DNA from: a virus
DNA length: 49,782 nucleotides
Virus record (IMG/VR): IMGVR_UViG_3300030329_006014
Location: 1-49,782 of that record
Strand: one strand, 5' to 3'
Shown: piece by piece, positions 698 to 47,519 of the stretch
Layout: every line of letters starts with the position of its first letter
How positions within the stretch are numbered: position 1 is the stretch's first letter
Translations under genes and position numbers: made by a program
Notes under the pieces: model-generated
Database searches by the model: none
What the model was told of the DNA's origin: nothing
What the model saw: only the letters and a program-made list of their open reading frames with translations

Positions 698-988
698 TCA
701 TTTGTCTGGCCCATTAATTATCTTTAGCAGCCCAACGTCAGAAAGATTATTAATTCTTTTTTGTACTTGGTGTTTATTTTCCATTATCCAGTTATAGAGC
801 GTACTGCTGCCATGTCCATATCCGTAAGGAAGTGGGCGATAATCCTTAGTTTGTATTTCTGGCGGCCTACCCCATTTTATAGGAAATGGTTTCCCGTTGG
901 AACTGTAGTACACCGTCGTCTTACAAGGAAGACAACAGCATCCGGTTAAATAAAATGCTAATAATAAAGTTAATAATATAATTTTCAT
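698..988 (-). CDS. predicted lipoprotein (96 aa)
   Basis: The N-terminus MKIILLTLLLAFYLTGCCC is a signal peptide with a type II lipobox (LTGC), so the mature protein should be lipid-modified at the first cysteine and sit in the host envelope. The mature part is Pro/Tyr/Gly-rich and then polar. It starts right after the upstream gene. It is one of several lipoproteins in this window, which also encodes a signal peptidase I (though that enzyme does not process lipoproteins). Function unknown. Confidence 0.75.
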   Translation of the reverse strand: MKIILLTLLLAFYLTGCCCLPCKTTVYYSSNGKPFPIKWGRPPEIQTKDYRPLPYGYGHGSSTLYNWIMENKHQVQKRINNLSDVGLLKIINGPDK

Positions 989-1273
989 TTAATAAATTTT
1001 AGTCTCTGTAAAAGTTCCGTCCTCTTCCATTACCCAAACTACATCCCCCTCTTCGCATTGTCTGGACGGCTTTAATTCATATTCTCCTCTATTGTTTGTG
1101 ACTCCAACTGTCTTGGTACAATGTTGTAAATACTCTAGCTTAGTTGTTCTTATTGCACCGTTTACCGCTCCGGCTTCCAACTTCTTCTTTGTTAATCTCT
1201 TGCGTTTGGGTTTCTTCTTAAGATTTCCCACAACACTTGTTCCTAAGTTATTATGTTCTCCAATATCTTTCAA
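989..1273 (-). CDS. hypothetical basic protein (94 aa)
   Basis: The N-terminal third is very basic (KKKPKRKRLTKKK), followed by a more acidic C-terminal part with a WVMEEDGTF segment. The basic stretch could bind nucleic acid. Its start overlaps the stop of the upstream membrane-protein gene by 4 nt (ATGA), implying translational coupling. No family recognised. Confidence 0.7.
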   Translation of the reverse strand: MKDIGEHNNLGTSVVGNLKKKPKRKRLTKKKLEAGAVNGAIRTTKLEYLQHCTKTVGVTNNRGEYELKPSRQCEEGDVVWVMEEDGTFTETKIY

Positions 1274-1479
1274 TAATGCCCCCCTTCACTTCCTTCTGGC
1301 GGCAATTTATATAAATTATTTTTATTTTTATCAAAACTCTGCCACCATTTTGGTATTTCTTTAAACAAGAAAAAAACAGTTAAACCCCACAAAGATACAG
1401 CTATGCATATCAACGCCCATTTAATTCCTACAAGAGCGTTTATGACCGTTGTTATGTTGTGGATTTCCTGAGAACTCAT
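1270..1479 (-). CDS. small membrane protein (69 aa), ExbD-linked
   Basis: Begins MSSQEIHNITTVINALVG and has one hydrophobic span (about residues 20-42), then a short polar tail. I chose ATG 1479 because a GGGAG ribosome-binding site lies 8 nt upstream; a longer in-frame start would run across most of the ExbD-like gene's end. It follows that gene by 4 nt, so it may work with the ExbB/ExbD-like pair. Function unknown. Confidence 0.7.
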   Translation of the reverse strand: MSSQEIHNITTVINALVGIKWALICIAVSLWGLTVFFLFKEIPKWWQSFDKNKNNLYKLPPEGSEGGHY

Positions 1480-1483
1480 TATT

Positions 1484-2071
1484 TTATTCTCCCAATGGGT
1501 TTGATAGGTTCGCTGGCAATTCATTGATGTCAATGATATTACCTTCTTTATCTGTTTTAAATCGGAAAGCCGTCTTTTCTTCTCCCGTTGCTTCAAATAT
1601 TTTTTCTTTCGTAACAACTTCTTGAAAAGGCTTTATTCTTATTAATTTAATAGTACATTTTACAGGCTCCTCGTCCACCTTTGAATAAACATGGACTGTT
1701 ACTATATTTTCCCCCTCAGTAACACCTCTGAAAGAAACTACCTCTTCGTGAAACTTAACAATCAGCCCTCCTTCTTCTGGTAGAGTGTTATTTCTTCTGC
1801 CTAGGGCATCATGATCTAGACTAATTAAGCTTCCTTGACCTCCTTCTCTCCTATTAAAAGAAACTTTATGACCTGAAGCAGACTGGACATAAATATCCAA
1901 ATCATCAGCACTATTACCGTCCCACGTTAATACAACTTCAAATAGTACGTTGGGTGGCCGCATTTTAGTCTTTTGCTCTTCGGTTTTAAGAAGAAAAAGG
2001 ATTGCTACAAGCATAAGCAAACAACAAAACAACACATCAATAAATGGTCTAAATGAAAAAAACTTACGCAT
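1484..2071 (-). CDS. ExbD/TolR-like membrane protein with extra C-terminal domain (195 aa)
   Basis: The N-terminus reads RPFIDVLFCCLLMLVAILF at about residues 8-26: a single membrane span with an aspartate (D12) in the PFIDV motif that in ExbD/TolR carries the proton. After it comes a periplasm-facing beta-rich domain with a DDLDIYV segment and SLDHDALGRRNN, resembling calcium-type beta domains of the YfaP/DUF2135 kind rather than the normal ExbD periplasmic domain. An ExbB/TolQ-like gene lies about 600 bp upstream on the same strand. The pair is predicted to form a proton-motive-force-driven complex in the host inner membrane. The target is unknown. Confidence 0.65.
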   Translation of the reverse strand: MRKFFSFRPFIDVLFCCLLMLVAILFLLKTEEQKTKMRPPNVLFEVVLTWDGNSADDLDIYVQSASGHKVSFNRREGGQGSLISLDHDALGRRNNTLPEEGGLIVKFHEEVVSFRGVTEGENIVTVHVYSKVDEEPVKCTIKLIRIKPFQEVVTKEKIFEATGEEKTAFRFKTDKEGNIIDINELPANLSNPLGE

Positions 2072-2086
2072 TATCCTGTCTCCATG

Positions 2087-2350
2087 TTAATCCCACTGAC
2101 TTCTAAATTTGTGTTCTGTTCTTGGTCGAGAAGCTCTTTCCAACTCAGCTTGCCTGAGTTCATGTACGGTTAACGGTTTACCTTGCTCCTCTTCCGTGAT
2201 CTCCCAATTATCCAAAATCAATTTAGCTAACCAAAGCTGAAATGGGATTGCTGCAAAGCCTAACGTGAAGACTATGGCTATGAACCAAAGAGCTATGGCT
2301 TTGGTGTGGTCACTCCATTTTATATTTAATTTTGACCTATATATTTTCAC
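2087..2350 (-). CDS. membrane protein (87 aa)
   Basis: One or two hydrophobic segments (about residues 18-48, ALWFIAIVFTLGFAAIPFQL and on) are followed by a charged C-terminal tail rich in Glu and Arg. It lies between tRNA-Ile and the ExbD-like gene, 15 nt from the latter, and is probably co-transcribed with it. No family recognised; a component of the ExbB/ExbD-like complex is possible by location only. Confidence 0.7.
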   Translation of the reverse strand: MKIYRSKLNIKWSDHTKAIALWFIAIVFTLGFAAIPFQLWLAKLILDNWEITEEEQGKPLTVHELRQAELERASRPRTEHKFRSQWD

Positions 2351-2354
2351 AATT

Positions 2355-2431
2355 TGGTACTCCGAGTGGGCATCGAACCCACAACCTCACGCTTATAAGG
2401 CGTGTGCTCTAACCCCTTGAGCTACCGGAGC
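2355..2431 (-). tRNA. tRNA-Ile (UAU)
   Basis: Cloverleaf read on the minus strand. The acceptor arms GCTCCGG and TCGGAGT pair with two G-U pairs, D stem GCTC/GAGC, anticodon stem CACGC/GCGTG with loop CTTATAA giving anticodon UAU, and T arm GTGGG-TTCGATG-CCCAC. The CCA end is encoded. It should read AUA, which is frequent in these AT-rich genes. Confidence 0.93.
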
Positions 2432-2440
2432 TAAAGCTTT

Positions 2441-2710
2441 TTAGTTATTTATTATTCTATTCTTTAAATTAAATTTTTCCATCAAATTAGACACACCGAT
2501 TATTTCAATGCCTACTTGAGTATTTACTTCGTCTGTGTCTATTGATACCATGCTGCCCTGCTTGTCTGCGTAAACCATTACTGCACCCACTTGACCTTGA
2601 GGTGGGGCTACGTAGATATACATAACATCAGCTTCTTCATCGTAGCTGATTCTGTTATCAAAGTCGTACATATCGTACTCCCCGTAACCTTCTGGAAATT
2701 CAGCTTTCAA
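2441..2710 (-). CDS. DUF2283-like protein (89 aa)
   Basis: Contains ISYDEEADVMYIYV and, later, VSIDTDEVNTQVGIEIIGV. Together these match the layout of DUF2283 proteins (a D-x-E-A-D-x-x-Y-I strand, then a G-I-E-I ending). That family is found widely in bacteria and phages with no known role. Here it overlaps the ExbB-like gene by 4 nt and is translationally coupled to it. Confidence 0.7.
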   Translation of the reverse strand: MKAEFPEGYGEYDMYDFDNRISYDEEADVMYIYVAPPQGQVGAVMVYADKQGSMVSIDTDEVNTQVGIEIIGVSNLMEKFNLKNRIINN

Positions 2711-3192
2711 TTTTTATTTTCCTTATTTTCTAATTTAAATTTTAGAATCATAAGTTGAATTTGCAACGGTAAGCTAAATACAATCCCGCAGACTGTTGTG
2801 TAAAACGCCGTATTTAACCCTTCTTTTAAACCAGCCACAATTTGTGATGTAGGTAATGAACTGTCTAAACTTCCTTCCGTTGAAATGATTAGCCCGATAA
2901 TTGTTCCTAACAAGCCTAAAGAGAAAAAATGTTCCGCTGAAAACCACCCCAAATAAGAACGCTTCGTTAAATACTCCTTGGCGTCGTTTTCTCTATTCTG
3001 ATTCATTTTATCCGCCAAATAGCAAAGCCTTCCTATATACGATGCAACGCATAAATACAAAAACATAATTAGAATAGAAATATATGAAAGATCATTCTTA
3101 ATCATTGTTGAAATCGCTCCCTTTTGCTCTGCAAAAAAGACTGCCGTAACTACGAGGGCATTTACTAAAAACCATTTTGTAAAAGTTTTCAT
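2707..3192 (-). CDS. MotA/TolQ/ExbB-like proton channel protein (161 aa)
   Basis: Three to four hydrophobic segments. The diagnostic part is FFSLGLLGTIIGLIIS (about residues 89-104) followed, after a soluble loop, by LNTAFYTTVCGIVFSLPLQ (about 127-145). This matches the G-L-x-G-T-x-x-G-x-I and A-L-x-T-x-x-G-x-x-x-x-I-P pattern of TolQ/ExbB/MotA. It is shorter than ExbB (about 240 aa), with a reduced cytoplasmic loop. With the ExbD-like product downstream it should form a proton-driven stator-like complex in the host inner membrane. Confidence 0.75.
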   Translation of the reverse strand: MKTFTKWFLVNALVVTAVFFAEQKGAISTMIKNDLSYISILIMFLYLCVASYIGRLCYLADKMNQNRENDAKEYLTKRSYLGWFSAEHFFSLGLLGTIIGLIISTEGSLDSSLPTSQIVAGLKEGLNTAFYTTVCGIVFSLPLQIQLMILKFKLENKENKN

Positions 3193-5535: not shown

Positions 5536-5984
5536 TTATATTTTTTCTTAAACTTTTTACATTTTCCTGTTGATGCGCCCATTTCTCTTTTGCCAAAGAT
5601 TTCTTCGTAATTATCTTTATACTGCTTGCTGGGAGGGGATAGTGTTACAGGCATTCTGTCTTCATCTTTGTAAATTTTTGTTCGTTTTTTTTGCACATGA
5701 TCCTTGTGTCCATTATCTTCAAGCCATTCATAAACGTAAGAGTTTCCATCTTCGTCAACCTTTTTGGGGGTCGATTGGTATTTATTTGCTGTTCTAGGAA
5801 TGTAGCCAATTTCAGCTTGCTTTCTTCTATGCTTGTCTATGCCAGCATCCCCCGTAAGCTTCACTCCTTTCTGCGCTTTTTTATGATGCGGCCTACGCTT
5901 ACCTTTTCCTGCGTCAATAGTACCATCTTTTCTAAGCTTCTTTTTTTTCTCGTGGTAATTTTTATAATCTTTAGACTTGCTCAT
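5532..5984 (-). CDS. basic hypothetical protein (150 aa)
   Basis: Very basic, lysine-rich protein starting MSKSKDYKNYHEKKKK. A strong AAAGGAGG ribosome-binding site precedes ATG 5984, which overlaps the epimerase stop (ATGA). The C-terminal NYEEIFGKRE echoes the ENFDAIFG motif of the next gene, perhaps a shared short module. High charge suggests nucleic-acid binding or a virion-packaged protein, but no family is recognised. Confidence 0.75.
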   Translation of the reverse strand: MSKSKDYKNYHEKKKKLRKDGTIDAGKGKRRPHHKKAQKGVKLTGDAGIDKHRRKQAEIGYIPRTANKYQSTPKKVDEDGNSYVYEWLEDNGHKDHVQKKRTKIYKDEDRMPVTLSPPSKQYKDNYEEIFGKREMGASTGKCKKFKKKYK

Positions 5985-6886
5985 TTCGCCTCCTTTAACC
6001 AATCCTCAAGCCTGACTTTGGGTTTCCACCCCAATAAATTTTTAATTTTATTTGAATCTGCTAACGTACTGCGAGCCTCACCCAGTCTGGGTGAAAGGAA
6101 GATATATTTATTTCCAATCATTTTGGCAATATCCAATACAGAATGATTTCTTCCTGTCCCTACATTGAGTATTTCTCCAAACACATCCTCGTTGTACGTT
6201 TCTGCGGCTAGAATGTTAGCGTTAACCACATCTTTTACATGGGTAAAATCTCTAGTCTGGAGGCCATCTCCCACAATGGTCATATCTTCTCCCGCGTCTC
6301 GCTGTCTTAAAAATATTCCAATTACAGGAGCGTATGAACCTTTTAGGGGCTGCCTTTCTCCGTAGACGTTGAAATATCTAAAAGTAACTGTATTGAGATC
6401 GTATAAATTGTTATACATTTTGCACAAGTCTTCAGCGGCCACCTTGCTTACTGAATAAGGGTTTAAGCAATCCCTATCCATCTCTTCATGCAAGGGTGGT
6501 TCATTTTTCAATCCGTAAGCCGAAGAAGTTGAAGAATATAAAACTCTTTCTACTCCGTGATGACGAGCAAGCTCAAGAATATTTAATGTTCCTATAAAAT
6601 TCACAGAACAAGTATCGAGTGGCTCTTTGATGCTGTAAGGAATCCTTGAACGAGCCGCCAAGTGAAAAACTGTATCTATTTGGTGGTTATTAAAGACATG
6701 TTCTACTTCACTGTAATCAGATATATCATATCCATAATAGGTCGCCTGATTTCTGTAATGATATTTTTCGTTAGCGGCGGAAGATTCGTTATCTACTACC
6801 ACTACGCTCTTACCTCTATCTATAAGCTCATCAACTAAGTGACCACCTATAAATCCGCAACCTCCTGTGACTAAAACATTTTCCAT
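5981..6886 (-). CDS. NAD-dependent sugar-nucleotide epimerase/dehydratase (301 aa)
   Basis: Extended short-chain dehydrogenase/reductase. The N-terminal Rossmann motif is TGGCGFIGGH (residues 7-16). The catalytic site is seen as SSTSSAYG and YSVSKVAAE (the Y-x-x-x-K pair), and NVYGERQ plus QTRDFTHVKDV fit UDP-glucose/GlcNAc 4-epimerases or dTDP-glucose dehydratases. It should interconvert or modify a nucleotide sugar in the host cytoplasm, in line with the several glycosyltransferases in the window. Substrate cannot be decided. Its ATG lies 15 nt from that of a divergent gene. Confidence 0.9.
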   Translation of the reverse strand: MENVLVTGGCGFIGGHLVDELIDRGKSVVVVDNESSAANEKYHYRNQATYYGYDISDYSEVEHVFNNHQIDTVFHLAARSRIPYSIKEPLDTCSVNFIGTLNILELARHHGVERVLYSSTSSAYGLKNEPPLHEEMDRDCLNPYSVSKVAAEDLCKMYNNLYDLNTVTFRYFNVYGERQPLKGSYAPVIGIFLRQRDAGEDMTIVGDGLQTRDFTHVKDVVNANILAAETYNEDVFGEILNVGTGRNHSVLDIAKMIGNKYIFLSPRLGEARSTLADSNKIKNLLGWKPKVRLEDWLKEAK

Positions 6887-8388: not shown

Positions 8389-9029
8389 TTCAATATTTTT
8401 GATTTTATTTTAGACTCTATCTTACTTAAAAACATTATGAATCTTCCAAGTAAATTGTAAGGAATAAGAAAGGCCCAAGCTATAGGAACGAAAAAGTAAT
8501 GAACCGCCTTGTAGAGAATGCTGCTGCTCTTTCTTTGTTCTTGTTCCGTGTATTTTTCTAGCCGTTCTTGTATTCGCTTTCTAGACTCATTATCTCTTCT
8601 TTCAAAATCAAAAAGCTCCAACTCTTTTAGTTCGCCCTTAAATATAATTGCTTTAAAATTAAAAACATAATCAAACTTGCTATCAAGGTTTGTTTTTTCA
8701 TCTCCACAAAATTCTGTTCCGAATATTATTTCTCCAGTAAACTCCTGCTTCTCTATTCCACCGTCTTTTTCTTTTAAAAAAACCTCGCCATTGTCATCTA
8801 CCGCTTGCTCAATAATAGTTTTTTCACTATAAAAATCGCCGTCTTCAGTTATGCTGTAGGAAAGTACGACATCCATATCTATTTCTTGAAAAAAGGAGGA
8901 AGTATAGAAGTCTTGAGTGCTCCAATCTACGCAATCAAAAAAAACCCTTTCATTTTCAGAAAATTTTTCTGATGGTATCGGGAGAGGGTATTCACAAATT
9001 ATTTTATTAATTAGTGGATTCTCGATCAT
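8385..9029 (-). CDS. hypothetical protein with C-terminal membrane anchor (214 aa)
   Basis: The N-terminal part contains DWSTQDFYTSSFF and SYSITEDGDFYSEK, a layout seen in uncharacterised phage proteins. A charged coiled-coil-like helix (about 145-165) is followed by a hydrophobic C-terminal segment (about 172-200, YFFVPIAWAFLIPYNLLG). It overlaps both neighbours by 4 nt, so it is translationally coupled to the sigma factor upstream and the methyltransferase downstream. Function unknown. Confidence 0.75.
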   Translation of the reverse strand: MIENPLINKIICEYPLPIPSEKFSENERVFFDCVDWSTQDFYTSSFFQEIDMDVVLSYSITEDGDFYSEKTIIEQAVDDNGEVFLKEKDGGIEKQEFTGEIIFGTEFCGDEKTNLDSKFDYVFNFKAIIFKGELKELELFDFERRDNESRKRIQERLEKYTEQEQRKSSSILYKAVHYFFVPIAWAFLIPYNLLGRFIMFLSKIESKIKSKILK

Positions 9030-9601
9030 TGTAGGGTATCGTTTTCATACTTAATTAATTTTTGAGCCTTCTTCCTAGCGTAATAAAGCCTCGACATAAC
9101 TGTGCCTATGGAACAATTAAATTTTTTTGACATTTCTTTGTAAGAAAGCTCTTCTACTGCGGAAGAAACTAAAACTTCCCTATGTTTTTGCGGGAGTTTA
9201 TGTAAGATTGCCTTAAGAAGAATATTAAGGTCTTCATTTCTCATATTTTTAAAGCCGTCTCCAAACTCTACTCTTTGATAAGTATACGCGTCAGGAAACT
9301 CTTCCAAGGAATACTCTTTATTTTTTTGTTTTTTCCTATATTGGTCTATAAAAAGATTTCTGCTTATAGAACACGCCCAAGTTTTGAAGTTTGATTTGCC
9401 TCTAAATTTTTTAATATTTTTCCAACACTTTATGTAAGTAATTTGAAGTAACTCTTCAGCCTCAAGTTCGTTGCGGGTTTTGTTTATAATCCAAGAATAA
9501 AGATATTTGTTACTCCTAGAAACAAGCTCTTCGAAAGCTTTTGAGTCGCCCTTCTGAGATTTCTTTATTAAAGATTTTTCTGAAAAGTCTTCGTATTTCA
9601 T
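9026..9601 (-). CDS. ECF-type RNA polymerase sigma factor (191 aa)
   Basis: Two-domain sigma-70 family protein. Region 2 spans about residues 15-95, with AFEELVSRSNKYLY, the AEELLQITYIKCWKNI helix and NFKTWACSISRNLFIDQYR. Region 4 spans about 125-185, with LPQKHREVLVSSAVEELSYKEMS and a helix-turn-helix ending CSIGTVMSRLYYARKKAQ. No region 1.1 or 3 is present, as in ECF factors. It should redirect host RNA polymerase to phage promoters. A TTG 12 nt upstream is an alternative start. There is no clear ribosome-binding site. No anti-sigma gene is evident beside it. Confidence 0.9.
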   Translation of the reverse strand: MKYEDFSEKSLIKKSQKGDSKAFEELVSRSNKYLYSWIINKTRNELEAEELLQITYIKCWKNIKKFRGKSNFKTWACSISRNLFIDQYRKKQKNKEYSLEEFPDAYTYQRVEFGDGFKNMRNEDLNILLKAILHKLPQKHREVLVSSAVEELSYKEMSKKFNCSIGTVMSRLYYARKKAQKLIKYENDTLQ

Positions 9602-9646
9602 TTTGAAGGACAATGTGGCTTTTTTTGCAAAAAAAACAAGAAAAGT

Positions 9647-11063: not shown

Positions 11064-11795
11064 TTATTCTTTTTCGTGCTCAGGCATCATTCCTCTTATC
11101 TCGTCTACTAAACCAACCTTTACACACTCGTCGGCATCGATCCACCAATCTTTTCTATCCCAATTTCTTCTAAGCTTCTGTCTTGTAAGCTTTGATCTAG
11201 ATGTAAAAATATCTAAAATACGATCCTCAATTCTTTTAACTAATTTTACTTCGTCCTCTACCTCGTAAGTCTTACCGATGGCCCCAAAAGCAGCCCTATG
11301 TATCATCATCCATGATTGATGTCCTATCCACCTGACATCTCCAGCTTGCAAGAGGATGCCAGCCATAGAAGCAGCCATACCTAGGGAGCCCGTTGTTATT
11401 TTGTGTCCTTTGGTTCTTAGTTCTTGAACAAAATCAAACAATTCAAACCCATCGATAATACTTCCTCCGGGGGATGAGAAAACTATTTCAATGTCGCATT
11501 TAGGTTCAAGCCTTGACCATTCTGTAAGCTTAACCATGCATTTTTTTACAGAAGCTTCACTTACGGAGCCAGAAAATCTATATAAACGATTTTCCTCATC
11601 GTGAGACTTCTCTCTAAGAAAGCTCCTTCTCGCTTTCTCTAGCTCCATAGCTGACAGATTAGCATCCATCTCTGCCTTGGTTGCTTCGGCTTCCGTTTTT
11701 CTAGCTTCGGCTTCCGTTTTGCGAGTCTCTGCTTCCTTGAGCTTTAATTCAGCAGCCGTCTCTTCGGGTGATTTTTTTTCTTTTTCTTCTGACAT
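11064..11795 (-). CDS. ClpP-like serine protease with N-terminal coiled coil (243 aa)
   Basis: Residues about 75-240 form a ClpP/crotonase-type S14 fold: FSSPGGSIIDGFELFD, the nucleophile motif GMAASMAGILLQAG (serine near residue 143) and WMMIHRAA (histidine near 166). The C-terminus DADECVKVGLVDEI matches the family; the third catalytic residue cannot be placed with confidence. Residues 10-60 form a charged helix with tandem KTEAEAR/KTEAEAT repeats. In phages such proteins are usually prohead maturation proteases, but no capsid gene is nearby, so a role in host protein turnover is also possible. An AAGGGG ribosome-binding site precedes the ATG. Confidence 0.85.
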   Translation of the reverse strand: MSEEKEKKSPEETAAELKLKEAETRKTEAEARKTEAEATKAEMDANLSAMELEKARRSFLREKSHDEENRLYRFSGSVSEASVKKCMVKLTEWSRLEPKCDIEIVFSSPGGSIIDGFELFDFVQELRTKGHKITTGSLGMAASMAGILLQAGDVRWIGHQSWMMIHRAAFGAIGKTYEVEDEVKLVKRIEDRILDIFTSRSKLTRQKLRRNWDRKDWWIDADECVKVGLVDEIRGMMPEHEKE

Positions 11796-12304: not shown

Positions 12305-13312
12305 CTATTCTTTTTCTTCTGGGCGATAAGAAAGACAACTTGCACAGCCGCAAGCTTTCGAGTGTGAGTGAACTAATTCTTTCATTCGCTCCTTATAGTT
12401 GCGAGACTTATGAGTAATTCTAATTTGAAAAGGAAACATTTTCTTTGCAGCCTCTTTCTCTGCATCTTCAGCTTCTTCTTTTTCCTTTGGCGTATTTTCA
12501 ATGGGCATTTTCTTTAAATCAGATTCGTTAGGCATTGGGACATTCTTGTCTAAGGCCCACATAATTTTATGTTTTTCGCAATATTCAACCATCCTGCGCA
12601 CGGGTACAATAAGATTAAATCCTTCTCCCGCTCCCCTTACAAGCATGCCCACATATCTAGCGTCTTTCTTTAAATATACTCCGCCGCCAGAGCTTCCGGG
12701 AAAAGCGGTGCAAGTTGTCTGATCGAATACATGTTTGTTTAATGATTTAATTAACCTACCGTGCTGAGAATAAATCCCATCCGTCATGCTGTTCGCACCC
12801 ATTTGACCTAGCAAAGAACCAACGTGCAGTAAGTCGTCTCCAAGGTTGGGGATTTTTTTATCTAAATAGAAAGTCACAGTATCAGTAACAAAATTTAATT
12901 TACGAACGCGCAATAAGGCTAAATCATGACCATCGTCAGCATCACTATACTTTAATACCTCCGCATCCATTTGTAGTCTGCCGACAGTTCTCCCGTTTTG
13001 CCTAATCTCTTTAACAACCATTGGGTCTTTAAATTCTACAATAGTTTTGGGTGCGCCATTGACCACAGTTTTCCTAGTCTTTCTAAGATTATCAATCACA
13101 TGAGCGGCGGTCCACACGAAATTGACTTGATTACCCTTAGAGTCTTTGCGAGTAAAAATCACTCCAGAGCCTTCTCCATTAGAGAACTGCCCTTCAGACC
13201 TAATTGTTACGGAAACATTTTGAAGGTGGTCCGCTGTTGATGTTTTCTTCTCGTCAGCGTAAGAAGTGAGCGCCAAAGAAAAGCCTAATAGGAGAATAGC
13301 TAGTTTTTTCAT
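12305..13312 (-). CDS. secreted trypsin-like serine protease (335 aa)
   Basis: MKKLAILLLGFSLALTSYA is a signal peptide, with cleavage expected after SYA. The trypsin-fold domain shows the full triad: TAAHVID (H71), GHDLALL (D130) and PGSSGGGV (S208), the layout of DegP/Do-type S1C proteases but without a PDZ domain. The C-terminal tail (about 265-335) is charged and ends with a SKACGCASCLSY cysteine cluster. The product should act in the host periplasm or outside the cell. Phage-encoded exported S1 proteases are unusual. A weak TTGGTT/TAAAAT pair lies upstream, ending 8 nt before the ATG. Confidence 0.9.
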   Translation of the reverse strand: MKKLAILLLGFSLALTSYADEKKTSTADHLQNVSVTIRSEGQFSNGEGSGVIFTRKDSKGNQVNFVWTAAHVIDNLRKTRKTVVNGAPKTIVEFKDPMVVKEIRQNGRTVGRLQMDAEVLKYSDADDGHDLALLRVRKLNFVTDTVTFYLDKKIPNLGDDLLHVGSLLGQMGANSMTDGIYSQHGRLIKSLNKHVFDQTTCTAFPGSSGGGVYLKKDARYVGMLVRGAGEGFNLIVPVRRMVEYCEKHKIMWALDKNVPMPNESDLKKMPIENTPKEKEEAEDAEKEAAKKMFPFQIRITHKSRNYKERMKELVHSHSKACGCASCLSYRPEEKE

Positions 13313-13365: not shown

Positions 13366-14214
13366 TTACAAAACAGCACGGCCTTTCGCACTCCTCCAGT
13401 CTTTTTCTCTCCTGTCTATGGTATTGTTCCTATGTATTGAAGATTTTATAACGTGAGGACTCACTCCTGCCTTAGTAAATTGATGATCTAGCGCAGACAT
13501 ATCCTTGGGAAAACAAGTACCCCCAAACCCCTTTTTTCCATCTGGCCCCGGAACTAACGTGTGTGACTTATTTATTCTGTCGTCTAAGGTCACCATTTGT
13601 ACTAATTTTTCGTAGTCAATGTCTTTAGCTTCACAAAAACTATGCACCTCATTAAAAAAAGAAACCTTTGTGGCTAAGAAGCAGTTTCTGGTATATTTTG
13701 TTAATTCAGCTTCCTCGGTTGTCGAGAAAAACATTTCTGGTTTATTAATTAACGTTCCATCTCGCCAAGAGTTTTCAAATACAGAATAAAGCTCATTTCT
13801 AAGGCTGTCGTTTCTTTCGTTTGTCCCTAGAATCCAATTTTTTTGACTCACGAAATCTTTTTCCCAATTATCTTCCGTTAAGAACTCAGGCATAAACATA
13901 ACACCAAGTTTCCTGCAAGTTCCAACTGGGACAGTAGATTTTACAATTATTCTTTCAGGGTCATAGCCTGTGTCAATCAATTCTGCGACGACCATTTCCA
14001 CTAAAAGTGTAGAGCAACTTCCATCGTGGTTCATTGGGGTAGGGACACAAACGAAAATAAAATCACACCCATCTATCAAGTCTATCAACTCAAGTCCCCG
14101 AATTGAACACTTTTCAGGTTCTTTATCGTAAATAAGACAGTTGACTGACTTACCCTCCAGCAGCCCTGTGGCTCCCCCAACGTAACCGTTACCGACTATG
14201 CCAATATTGTTCAT
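13366..14214 (-). CDS. UDP-glucose/GDP-mannose dehydrogenase-like protein, short form (282 aa)
   Basis: The N-terminal Rossmann motif is IGIVGNGYVGGATG, and FVCVPTP and VKSTVPVGT match the NAD domain. The central helical domain carries the catalytic cysteine in GFGGTCFPKDM (about residue 240). UDP-sugar dehydrogenases are normally about 390-440 aa; the C-terminal UDP-binding domain is missing here, so the protein may be a natural single-active-site short form or act on another sugar nucleotide. It fits the epimerase and glycosyltransferase genes as part of a glycan pathway. Confidence 0.85.
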   Translation of the reverse strand: MNNIGIVGNGYVGGATGLLEGKSVNCLIYDKEPEKCSIRGLELIDLIDGCDFIFVCVPTPMNHDGSCSTLLVEMVVAELIDTGYDPERIIVKSTVPVGTCRKLGVMFMPEFLTEDNWEKDFVSQKNWILGTNERNDSLRNELYSVFENSWRDGTLINKPEMFFSTTEEAELTKYTRNCFLATKVSFFNEVHSFCEAKDIDYEKLVQMVTLDDRINKSHTLVPGPDGKKGFGGTCFPKDMSALDHQFTKAGVSPHVIKSSIHRNNTIDRREKDWRSAKGRAVL

Positions 14215-44099: not shown

Positions 44100-44971
44100 T
44101 TAATAAAGTAGACGACGGGTTCTACCACATTTGGTCTCCTTCTTGTTTTTGGGGGGATCAAATGTTCAACTTAATGGCGGCTAAACAATTAGCTAAAGGT
44201 AAAGACGTAGTAATCCATACAGCTAAAGAGGCTTGGACCGGGCACACTAAAGAATGGTTTCCTATGGATCGAAATATATTTAAATTTTGGTCAACAGTCA
44301 ATTTTATAAAAGGTATTATCTTTGACGTTAGTCAAAAAAAACCAATAGACAAGGGTCGCAAAGAAAGCAGATACCACGTTGGAATGACTTTGGCTAGTGG
44401 CTCAGAGCTTTTGGGTAATACGTTCGTTCACGACATAAGTAAAGACATAGACTTTTCTTCTTTCTCCAAGTTTAGTCATCCTTATCGCGCTGATAATCAT
44501 AAAATAGCCGTGTTTCAACCAATATCTATCTTGCATAGAGCAAAAAATGATATACAATCAGAGTATATAAGCCCTTGGGATAAAAGCGTAGAAGCCCTGC
44601 TTGAACAAGGATATGAAGTGGTGGCTATAGGTAGTGAGAAAGACGAAAAAGACATGGAAGAGTACTATCCAAACCTGTTAAAAAAATACCCTATCACAAA
44701 CCTACTAGGAAAAACTAATATATTTGAGTCAATCGACCTAATCATGAACCACGCTTCGTTTGTTTTGTCTTGCGATAGCTGGTCAGCTTGGTACGGTATA
44801 GCGTCTAGAAAAAAAACGGCAGTTTCTGCGGGAAAAACATACAGGAACGGCGATGAAGAAAATATTTATATAGAGGCGCTAGGAAACAAAGATGTTTATA
44901 AACTTGATTACGCCTACAACAAAGAGAACTGTGACCTTAACTTAGCAAAATGGATAACGGAAAATGCCTGA
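44081..44971 (+). CDS. GT-B glycosyltransferase, GT9-like (296 aa)
   Basis: HIWSPSCFWGDQMFNLMAA at the start, then VVAIGSEKDEKDMEEYY and LLGKTNIFESIDLIMNHA, and FVLSCDSWSAWYGIASRKK, where GT9 heptosyltransferases have the sugar-nucleotide site. Overlaps the exonuclease and the polymerase core gene. Donor and acceptor unknown. Confidence 0.75.
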   Translation: MADRTVINKVDDGFYHIWSPSCFWGDQMFNLMAAKQLAKGKDVVIHTAKEAWTGHTKEWFPMDRNIFKFWSTVNFIKGIIFDVSQKKPIDKGRKESRYHVGMTLASGSELLGNTFVHDISKDIDFSSFSKFSHPYRADNHKIAVFQPISILHRAKNDIQSEYISPWDKSVEALLEQGYEVVAIGSEKDEKDMEEYYPNLLKKYPITNLLGKTNIFESIDLIMNHASFVLSCDSWSAWYGIASRKKTAVSAGKTYRNGDEENIYIEALGNKDVYKLDYAYNKENCDLNLAKWITENA

Positions 44972-47519
44972 TTTTACAGACCAATTTAAAGAACTAGATA
45001 TCCCCCTGCATGGTGTGCGATTGCCATCTTTCGAAATTAATAACAAATACAAAAGATCTCTTGGCGTAAGCGAGGATATTGATAACGAAAACTTTTTAAA
45101 AGCTTTGTGCGAAAACGGTAAAGAAAAAGTATGGAAAGATGTTAGTGAAGAAAGAAAAAATGAGTACTCCGAAAGACTTGAGCATGAGCTTAAGACAATT
45201 AAAGAGCTTGGATTTATTGATTACCTTCTTTTAGTATGGGATGTAATTAACTACTGCAAAGAAAGCAACATTCCAACTGGACTTGGTCGTGGCAGCGCAG
45301 CAGGAAGTTTGGTTTTATATTTTATTGGAGTAACCAAGATAGACCCTATTGAGCACGGGCTTTATTTTGAAAGATTTATATCAAAAATCAGAGCTAAAAA
45401 AACCATAATAAATGACATAACATATTTAGACGGCTCATTGATGATGGATGTAGACCTTGACATCTGTTACTACAATCGTCAGAAAGTTATTGAATACCTT
45501 GAAGAAAAGTTTAAAGGTAAAACCTCAAAAATAATTACCTTAAACACATTAAGCGGAAAACTATGCATTAAGGAATGCGGAAAAGTAGCGGCCAATAAAA
45601 GCGAGCAAGAAATGAATAAAGTTTCTTCTCTTATTCCAAAGGTTTTTGGCCAAATTAAGGACATTAAAGAGGCTTACGCCGAGCAGGATGAGTTTAAAAA
45701 ATGGTGTGATGAAAATGAAGAAGCTTACAATATATCACTAAAGATCAAAGGGCTGATAAAAAATAAAGGGGTACATCCTTCCGCAATTTCTTTGTCGTTC
45801 GATAAGCTAAACGATTGTTGTCCAACGGAATTAACCTCAGATAAAAAGAGTCACGTTGCTTCGTATGACATGAATTGGATATCAATTTTTAATGTTAAAC
45901 TTGATATTCTTGGTCTACGCGCCGTTTCAGTCGTGGATGATGTATGCAAAAGCGTTGGTATTGATATTACTGATGTAAACTTAAAAGATCAACTTATCTA
46001 CGATAATCTTCAATACCTCAGAACACCTCATGGCTTGTTCCAAATTGAAGCTGAAACGAATTATCGTGTCTGTCAGAAAGTTAAACCCAAGAATTTGGAA
46101 GAACTAAGCGCCGTATTAGCCTTGGCTCGTCCGGGGGCGCTTAATTTTGTGGATCAATACGCGGCCTACGTAGAGGACGGAACCTATGATCCAATCCACC
46201 CATTTTTTGACGACATTCTAACATCAACAGGCGGCGTAGCCTTATACCAAGAGCAGCTAATGAAAATGGCTAACAAGATTGGCTTTACTCTTGATGAAGC
46301 GGAAATCTTAAGGCGTATTGTAGGAAAGAAAAAGGTAAAAGAAGTTCGCAAGTGGAAAAGGAAAATTAAAAATAAAATTAAGGAAAACAATCTTGAATCA
46401 GAAATTGGAGATATTCTATGGAGAGTATTAGAAGATTCTGCTAATTATTCTTTTAATAAATCTCACTCTATTTCATACGCCGCCTTAGCTGCTACAACTA
46501 TTTATTTAAAATTTAAGTATCCCCAACAATTCTTTTTAAGCTTGTTGAAAATGACCAGACATGAGCCAGACCCAATTAGTGAAATATCTAAAATTCAAAG
46601 AGAAATGTCTCATTTTGATATAAAACTTTTACCCCCTCATATTATTAAATCTGATATGGATTTTAAAGTAGAGGGTAAAGATATTAGATTTGGTCTTTTA
46701 TCCATAAAAGGAATATCAGATAAATCAATTGAAAAACTGAACAATTTTAAAGATAATTACTCTAATAAATTCGAAGTTTTTGAAGGAGCAAAGGAATCAG
46801 GTCTTACGATTGGCATACTATCAGCACTAATTCAAGCTGGCACATTCGAGGGATTCTCGGTGTCCAGAAGCAAAGTTGTTTATGAAGCTCAACTTTGGAA
46901 CATCTTAACTAAAAAAGAAAAAAAATCTGCCATGCTGCTGGCTGAGTCGCAAAAGTACGATTTAGTTGAAATAGTCAAAAAATTAAAAGAAAAAAAAGAC
47001 GAAAAAGGAAAGCCAATAATAAGAGATACAAGGCTAAACACAATTAAAACAAAATCAGAACCATATAAACAAATTTATTTTAAAAATAAATATTCAGAAA
47101 CTTTTGCAAACTGGTATTACGAAAAACATCTTCTCGGCTATACATACAATATGCCTTTGAAGGATATTTTCAGAGAAAAAAAGGACAACCTTTTATCATT
47201 GAGGGAAGTGGAAGATTCCGAAGTTGACGACAGGGTATCTTTTGTGGGCACTGTAGAGGATAAGCCGTATTTCGGAACATCTAGAAACGGAAACGACTAC
47301 ATGAGAATGTTCGTAGAAGATGAAACGGGTAGTATGAAAGTGATGATCTTTTCCAAGAGACTTGAAAACAGCGTTACCTCAAATAATGGCTCTCCGCCAG
47401 AAGAAAATAACATTGTTATCGTTAACGGAGTCAAAAAGGATGAAGTTGTTTTTGCGGATAAAATAGCAATTCAATCAAACAAAATATACACAAAACTATC
47501 AGAGCTAAAAAATAGTTGA
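44964..47519 (+). CDS. dnaE: DNA polymerase III alpha subunit, catalytic part (851 aa)
   Basis: Begins where the PHP domain ends in normal DnaE (LHGVRLPSFEI). Palm: LGRGSAAGSLVLYFIGVTKI (near residue 107) and MMDVDLDICYYNRQ with the two catalytic aspartates (near 161); KLDILGLRAVSVVDDV supplies the third. VALYQEQLMKMA and SHSISYAALA mark the thumb/fingers, a helix-hairpin region follows, and VDDRVSFVGTVEDKPYF starts the C-terminal OB fold. Together with the N-terminal part the two chains total 1106 aa, normal for DnaE. There is no intein signature at either junction. Confidence 0.95.
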   Translation: MPDFTDQFKELDIPLHGVRLPSFEINNKYKRSLGVSEDIDNENFLKALCENGKEKVWKDVSEERKNEYSERLEHELKTIKELGFIDYLLLVWDVINYCKESNIPTGLGRGSAAGSLVLYFIGVTKIDPIEHGLYFERFISKIRAKKTIINDITYLDGSLMMDVDLDICYYNRQKVIEYLEEKFKGKTSKIITLNTLSGKLCIKECGKVAANKSEQEMNKVSSLIPKVFGQIKDIKEAYAEQDEFKKWCDENEEAYNISLKIKGLIKNKGVHPSAISLSFDKLNDCCPTELTSDKKSHVASYDMNWISIFNVKLDILGLRAVSVVDDVCKSVGIDITDVNLKDQLIYDNLQYLRTPHGLFQIEAETNYRVCQKVKPKNLEELSAVLALARPGALNFVDQYAAYVEDGTYDPIHPFFDDILTSTGGVALYQEQLMKMANKIGFTLDEAEILRRIVGKKKVKEVRKWKRKIKNKIKENNLESEIGDILWRVLEDSANYSFNKSHSISYAALAATTIYLKFKYPQQFFLSLLKMTRHEPDPISEISKIQREMSHFDIKLLPPHIIKSDMDFKVEGKDIRFGLLSIKGISDKSIEKLNNFKDNYSNKFEVFEGAKESGLTIGILSALIQAGTFEGFSVSRSKVVYEAQLWNILTKKEKKSAMLLAESQKYDLVEIVKKLKEKKDEKGKPIIRDTRLNTIKTKSEPYKQIYFKNKYSETFANWYYEKHLLGYTYNMPLKDIFREKKDNLLSLREVEDSEVDDRVSFVGTVEDKPYFGTSRNGNDYMRMFVEDETGSMKVMIFSKRLENSVTSNNGSPPEENNIVIVNGVKKDEVVFADKIAIQSNKIYTKLSELKNS

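Follow-up and report, generated by a model that had tools for sequence, protein, structure and literature searches.

A three-gene operon of phages and Alphaproteobacteria that probably encodes a hitherto undescribed form of 5:2 ion-driven motor

Two minus-strand genes in the window (the whole 49,782-base virus record analyzed here) encode a MotA/TolQ/ExbB-like subunit (B) and an ExbD-like axle (D), and together with a third gene that lies off the window (T) we judge them to be, on sequence grounds, probably a hitherto undescribed form of the 5:2 ion-driven motors, that is, a trans-envelope device resembling Tol and Ton. We place B-D-T with these motors because B has a MotA_ExbB domain and the pore threonines and D has a single TM helix with a conserved Asp, the ExbD/TolR outer domain being the exception among the features tested here. 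We lean towards the view that B, D and T form a compact inner-membrane machine of the 5:2 family, driven by ions and serving as a host-envelope accessory in the phage. Few 5:2 motors are known, namely flagellar stators, Tol, Ton, gliding and secretion motors, and Zorya, and the literature searched yielded no phage-borne example, nothing relevant on TerD together with ExbD or on ExbB encoded by phages, and no description of the B-D pairing.

The motor pair and its surroundings in the window

The features of the pair are as follows.

2707..3192, minus strand: gene B, encoding a 161-aa MotA/TolQ/ExbB-like subunit with four predicted TM helices
1484..2071, minus strand: gene D, ExbD-like axle (195 aa, one TM helix and a YfaP/TerD-like outer domain)
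1967..2050, minus strand: TM helix of D (aa 8–35, from the AF2 helix and hydropathy)
2036..2038, minus strand: codon of the invariant membrane Asp of D (D12)
1520..1945, minus strand: outer beta domain of D (aa 43–184, from AF2, VIA-align and conservation), with invariant W50, D57, D59, D88, G91, E110 and G120

The initial annotation had called the product of 2707–3192 a TolQ/ExbB/MotA-type protein, and our searches bore this out. Window B matched the Pfam MotA_ExbB family above the cut-off (E-value 9.5e-7, 29.1 bits against 22.9), and a PDB-wide search with a profile of 39 B relatives returned exclusively subunits of 5:2 motors (MotA, PomA, TolQ, ZorA and ExbB), the top matches being to MotA and PomA. 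Alignment with MotA/PomA identified T97, the Thr of the GTxxG motif, and T133 as the pore-lining threonines of the final two TM helices in B; these are kept in 159/165 and 157/165 B proteins, respectively, and G93 is invariant (165/165). From these matches we regard B as a genuine MotA/TolQ/ExbB homolog. A tblastn search of isolated phages with window B gave no matches, and its relatives there were reached solely via the neighborhood of D; PHROGs has a family for neither B nor D, and the rhizobial-phage relatives of the two gave weak PHROGs matches at most.

The Pfam match of D to ExbD was weak and confined to the TM region (PF02472, E-value 0.034, 14.6 bits against a cut-off of 25.4), and no whole-length ExbD/TolR domain above the curated cut-off was present in D by Pfam; yet in an alignment of 167 distinct D proteins the residue at D12, within the membrane helix, was Asp in 166/166, upholding the ExbD-type membrane aspartate proposed earlier. 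The reading of B and D as a motor pair had been made to depend on this Asp and on the GTxxG motif of B, and as both are so widely conserved neither can be put down to chance.

For D, AF2 modeling (mean pLDDT 84.8) predicts a TM helix at residues 8–35 and a rigid beta domain from ~43–44 onward, separated by a gap of ~8 residues. When the outer domain of this model was searched with VIA-align the TerD-like structure 3ibz came first (Z 11.8 over 138 residues, rmsd 3.7), the remaining TerD-like structures followed at Z 8.9–10.5, and the next group fell to ~6.5; as modeled, the domain has the TerD fold, clear of the structural background. The YfaP/DUF2135-like character claimed for it in the initial annotation is also real at the sequence level, with an hhalign score of 37.3 against E. 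coli YfaP compared with 24.4 for the best of 100 shuffles; PF09906 was not found in D by Pfam at E-values up to 1. TerD itself was rejected as a sequence relative, since its hhalign scores (13–14) equaled those of shuffles and it matches by fold alone. The outer domain of D thus resembles YfaP by sequence and TerD by predicted fold, and differs from both in being tethered to a motor axle; as judged from sequence and model together, it replaces the ExbD/TolR outer domain. The seven invariant residues listed above are unchanged in 167/167 D proteins, and the four acidic ones are possibly a metal or ligand site.

Around the pair the window carries further genes.

2441..2710, minus strand: DUF2283 gene between B and D (Pfam 5.9e-8); variable cargo that relatives carry at other downstream positions
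2355..2431, minus strand: tRNA-Ile(tat) gene, called by ARAGORN, also between B and D
2087..2350, minus strand: small one-TM protein, DUF6693-like (Pfam 3.3e-5, below cut-off); variable cargo between B and D
1270..1479, minus strand: small membrane protein after D, variable cargo whose ATG start is probably at 1479
698..988, minus strand: small lipoprotein, common within the window's clade but not outside it
12305..13312, minus strand: exported trypsin-like protease (Trypsin_2 by Pfam, 3.1e-11; hmmsearch 5.1e-6), with a signal peptide and GSSGG

The small membrane proteins and the lipoprotein had been noted in the same run as the pair; they are variable cargo among relatives and do not belong to the conserved unit. 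The proposed gene run between B and D survives in part: a small membrane gene does lie there, but the DUF2283 and tRNA-Ile genes also intervene, and in most relatives B and D abut. The ORF listed as 1270–1617 overlaps D merely through a spurious TTG start, its ATG at 1479 lying just past D. Exported trypsin-like proteases recur near B-D-T in phage 16-3 (p036), in RHph_N3_19, in contig L062 and in a group comprising L097, L099 and L104–L107; we rejected this protease as a fourth member of the operon, as it is absent near most loci and on chromosomes, and the association is a loose one.

Elsewhere the window encodes a ClpP-type protease (11064–11795, minus strand; Pfam 8e-27), a Sigma-70/ECF-like sigma factor (9026–9613, minus strand) and, on the minus strand at 5981–6886 and 13366–14214, a sugar-nucleotide gene set consisting of an apparent NAD-dependent epimerase (from translation only) and a UDP-glucose/GDP-mannose dehydrogenase. 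A DNA polymerase resembling DNA polymerase III alpha (44964–47519, plus strand) lies near genes for RNR, a DnaB-like helicase and a UvsX-like recombinase, with no close isolate. PHROG names had pointed to a T4-like virus, an assignment we abandoned as the polymerase is more similar to DNA polymerase III alpha. A near-identity DNA search of phage records with the window gave no match.

A conserved third gene and the order of the operon

A survey of gene order in other phages, suggested in the initial annotation, showed that the B-D pairing is kept and revealed the conserved third gene T, which had been missed because it lies beyond the window end. B stands just upstream of D in 86/86 relatives with enough flank (83/86 by script, L002, L055 and L067 having a B with a longer start-codon overlap), and in most of them the two genes abut or overlap by a few bases. 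T was found downstream of D at 79/89 loci; the ten loci where it was not found all belong to the window's clade, on contigs that end before the expected place of T. A reciprocal scan led by a narrower T alignment identified 47 loci (including L072 and L061, already found from D), all of which have D, with B present wherever the contig reaches; T without D was never met. By these sequence comparisons B, D and T are shown to constitute an operon that is strictly conserved, with its genes arranged as in tolQ-tolR-tolA and exbB-exbD-tonB. T directly follows D in most lineages and lies 0.5–5.5 kb downstream of it in the window's clade; the window ends ~1.5 kb downstream of D, and a search for T in all its frames gave no match. 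Past T, loci L101–L103 have an SbmA/BacA-like transporter gene directly after it (Pfam 3.5e-123), and a related phage contig has a predicted tmRNA gene about 0.4 kb past T (L006:11426-11839, by ARAGORN).

T is predicted to have two TM helices, a small alpha/beta outer domain and a disordered flexible tail, and its charge pattern indicates that the short loop is inside and the C-terminal part periplasmic. An OB-like fold for T was rejected, the matches being too weak (Z at most 5.9). Four T proteins were scanned with Pfam, and no TonB/TolA domain, including the TonB C-terminal domain, was found.

The resemblance to TolQ-TolR-TolA and ExbB-ExbD-TonB therefore lies in the gene order, in the homology of B to TolQ/ExbB, in the single TM helix of D with its ion-carrying Asp, and in a T that, like TolA and TonB, is membrane-anchored and reaches into the periplasm. 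The differences are that D has a YfaP/TerD-like outer domain, unlike ExbD and TolR, and that T has two TM helices, another conserved tail, and no TonB/TolA domain. With the flagellar stators MotAB/PomAB the system shares a B of four TM helices, but the cytoplasmic loop of B is very short and the outer domain of D is not OmpA-like. ZorAB are likewise 5:2 motor subunits, with weak ZorA matches to B; B-D-T, however, has neither the long ZorA tail nor the OmpA-like ZorB domain nor the effector genes of Zorya. The nearest parallel for D is in vWA force transducers, which adjoin tolQ-like genes in bacteria and keep the axle Asp (PMC12204202, section 8): in both, a motor axle with a conserved Asp is joined to a new outer domain, the difference being that theirs is vWA and bacterial rather than phage-borne, whereas B-D has a YfaP/TerD-like domain and a third gene.

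Distribution among phages and Alphaproteobacteria

A search of phage records with D identified 21 rhizobial phage records (27–31% identity over nearly the full length), all annotated as hypothetical proteins, and a second hop from the D relatives led to 16-3, a temperate phage of S. meliloti, and its kin; a profile scan of IMG/VR for D found 110 relatives, of which 80 were kept. The hosts of all isolated D-bearing phages are Rhizobium or Sinorhizobium, which fits a device for the alphaproteobacterial envelope and suggests an alphaproteobacterial host for the window's virus as well. In phage 16-3, B-D-T, encoded by p038, p040 and p042, is located at 22.65–24.51 kb, between the late genes and int/xis, in what has been named the silent region (PMC10460002), and in this phage it therefore looks like accessory cargo.

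Scanning GTDB genomes yielded 73 loci, most of them B-D-T operons with ordinary bacterial neighbors, carried by Rhodospirillales, Hyphomicrobiales and other Alphaproteobacteria; Azospirillum brasilense Sp7 and Thalassobaculum litoreum are among the bacteria with a chromosomal operon. Of 59 chromosomal loci, 57 have B and 57 have T, and the three-gene unit alone is conserved: no general conserved neighbor was found beyond it, sfsA occurring at ~10/59 loci. Some copies resembling the phage type stand in long bacterial contigs amid housekeeping genes, e.g., COX15-B-D-T-thrB-rnhA (names from translations). D was present in 60/385 sampled alphaproteobacterial genomes, and NZ_CP012915.1 and other Azospirillum megaplasmids or chromids each bear D in two copies. 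A tree of 87 D proteins has two deep sides, one of chromosomal and 16-3-type phage proteins and the other of diverse phages including the window. B-D-T was also seen on MAG contigs of Parcubacteria-type, Verrucomicrobiota and Actinobacteria assignment (L108, L109, L115, L117, L118, L120 and L124), which may be phage contigs or mis-binned.

The machine had been described as phage-made; phages do carry B-D-T, but this description proved too narrow, the same operon being present on alphaproteobacterial chromosomes. Since several kinds of rhizobial phages, many uncultured phages and alphaproteobacterial chromosomes all carry it, B-D-T is no purely phage invention.

Proposed mechanism and alternative explanations

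B-D is best read as an ion-driven motor, given the homology of B, the pore threonines and the invariant Asp, and the gene order together with the topology of T makes T the likely transducer or effector, as are TolA and TonB. Protons would pass through B past the Asp of D, and their flow may turn or pump a D dimer whose beta domain would act on T; T in turn could pass force or a change of state to the periplasm or outer membrane. The predicted closeness of the outer domain of D to the membrane is unlike a long force shaft and counts against the motor reading. For the phage, such a device may guard or alter the envelope of its alphaproteobacterial host during infection; we favor envelope guarding or superinfection exclusion, and our leading guess for the phage role is the latter. 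Against an exclusion role stands the occurrence of this operon on chromosomes too, which suggests that it has a housekeeping task at the envelope.

This last point bears on the strongest alternative, that B-D-T is an ordinary envelope-maintenance system of Alphaproteobacteria, similar to Tol-Pal, with which phages keep the host envelope sound and which has no anti-phage role. It is consistent with the chromosomal copies flanked by ordinary genes (the COX15 arrangement above, and sfsA/map/radC or fliG, all named from translations), with the 60 of 385 genomes of the class that have D and with the two copies on Azospirillum chromids; however, B-D-T is patchy rather than universal among Alphaproteobacteria, and Tol-Pal should already exist in most carriers. 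We consider this explanation possible, though doubtful.

An auxiliary metabolic role, in which B-D-T, like ExbBD-TonB, would power nutrient uptake through the outer membrane of an infected cell, could draw on the exbB-exbD-tonB gene order and on the many carriers that are uncultured phages, some of them with B-D-T near sugar- or nucleotide-metabolism genes. We think it unlikely, as T has no TonB C-terminal domain in our Pfam scans and there is no TonB-dependent transporter family among the 25 commonest neighbor families listed.

The initial annotation also raised lysis timing, and a lysis module acting as a PMF-sensing holin or spanin substitute might be entertained given membrane proteins that extend into the periplasm and the exported trypsin-like proteases of some carriers. 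The genes around B-D-T are very varied and lend this no support: the commonest families of the 107 neighbors include none for lysis, the operon also occurs on bacterial chromosomes, and its place in 16-3 is outside the late region, leaving such a module quite improbable.

Interference with host Zorya function had also been suggested. Least credible is a Zorya-related defense or counter-defense element, with B as a degenerate form of ZorA or with the pair poisoning host ZorAB, for the ZorA model matches of B (best E-values 2e-7 and 3.7e-7) reach about 29 bits (29.4 against 500, the cut-offs being 500–750), B has no long tail of the ZorA kind, no PADLOC defense model matches D or T, and no zorC/D/E-like family is among the commonest B-D-T neighbors.

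Returning to the ion-driven machine, we tentatively go further and speculate that B-D-T may be an undescribed kind of trans-envelope machine, PMF-driven and having an outer domain and a third component of its own, which would be native to Alphaproteobacteria and would have been acquired repeatedly by unrelated phages for control of the envelope against competing phages. One more class, distinguished by a new axle domain and an obligate third protein, would widen the family of 5:2 motors, and several phage lineages and chromosomes carrying B-D-T would show that phages bear proton-driven machines. As the phage copies are small (B about 160 aa, D 195 aa and T 150–200 aa) and some carriers can be cultured, such as 16-3 in S. 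meliloti, the function of these proteins is directly testable.
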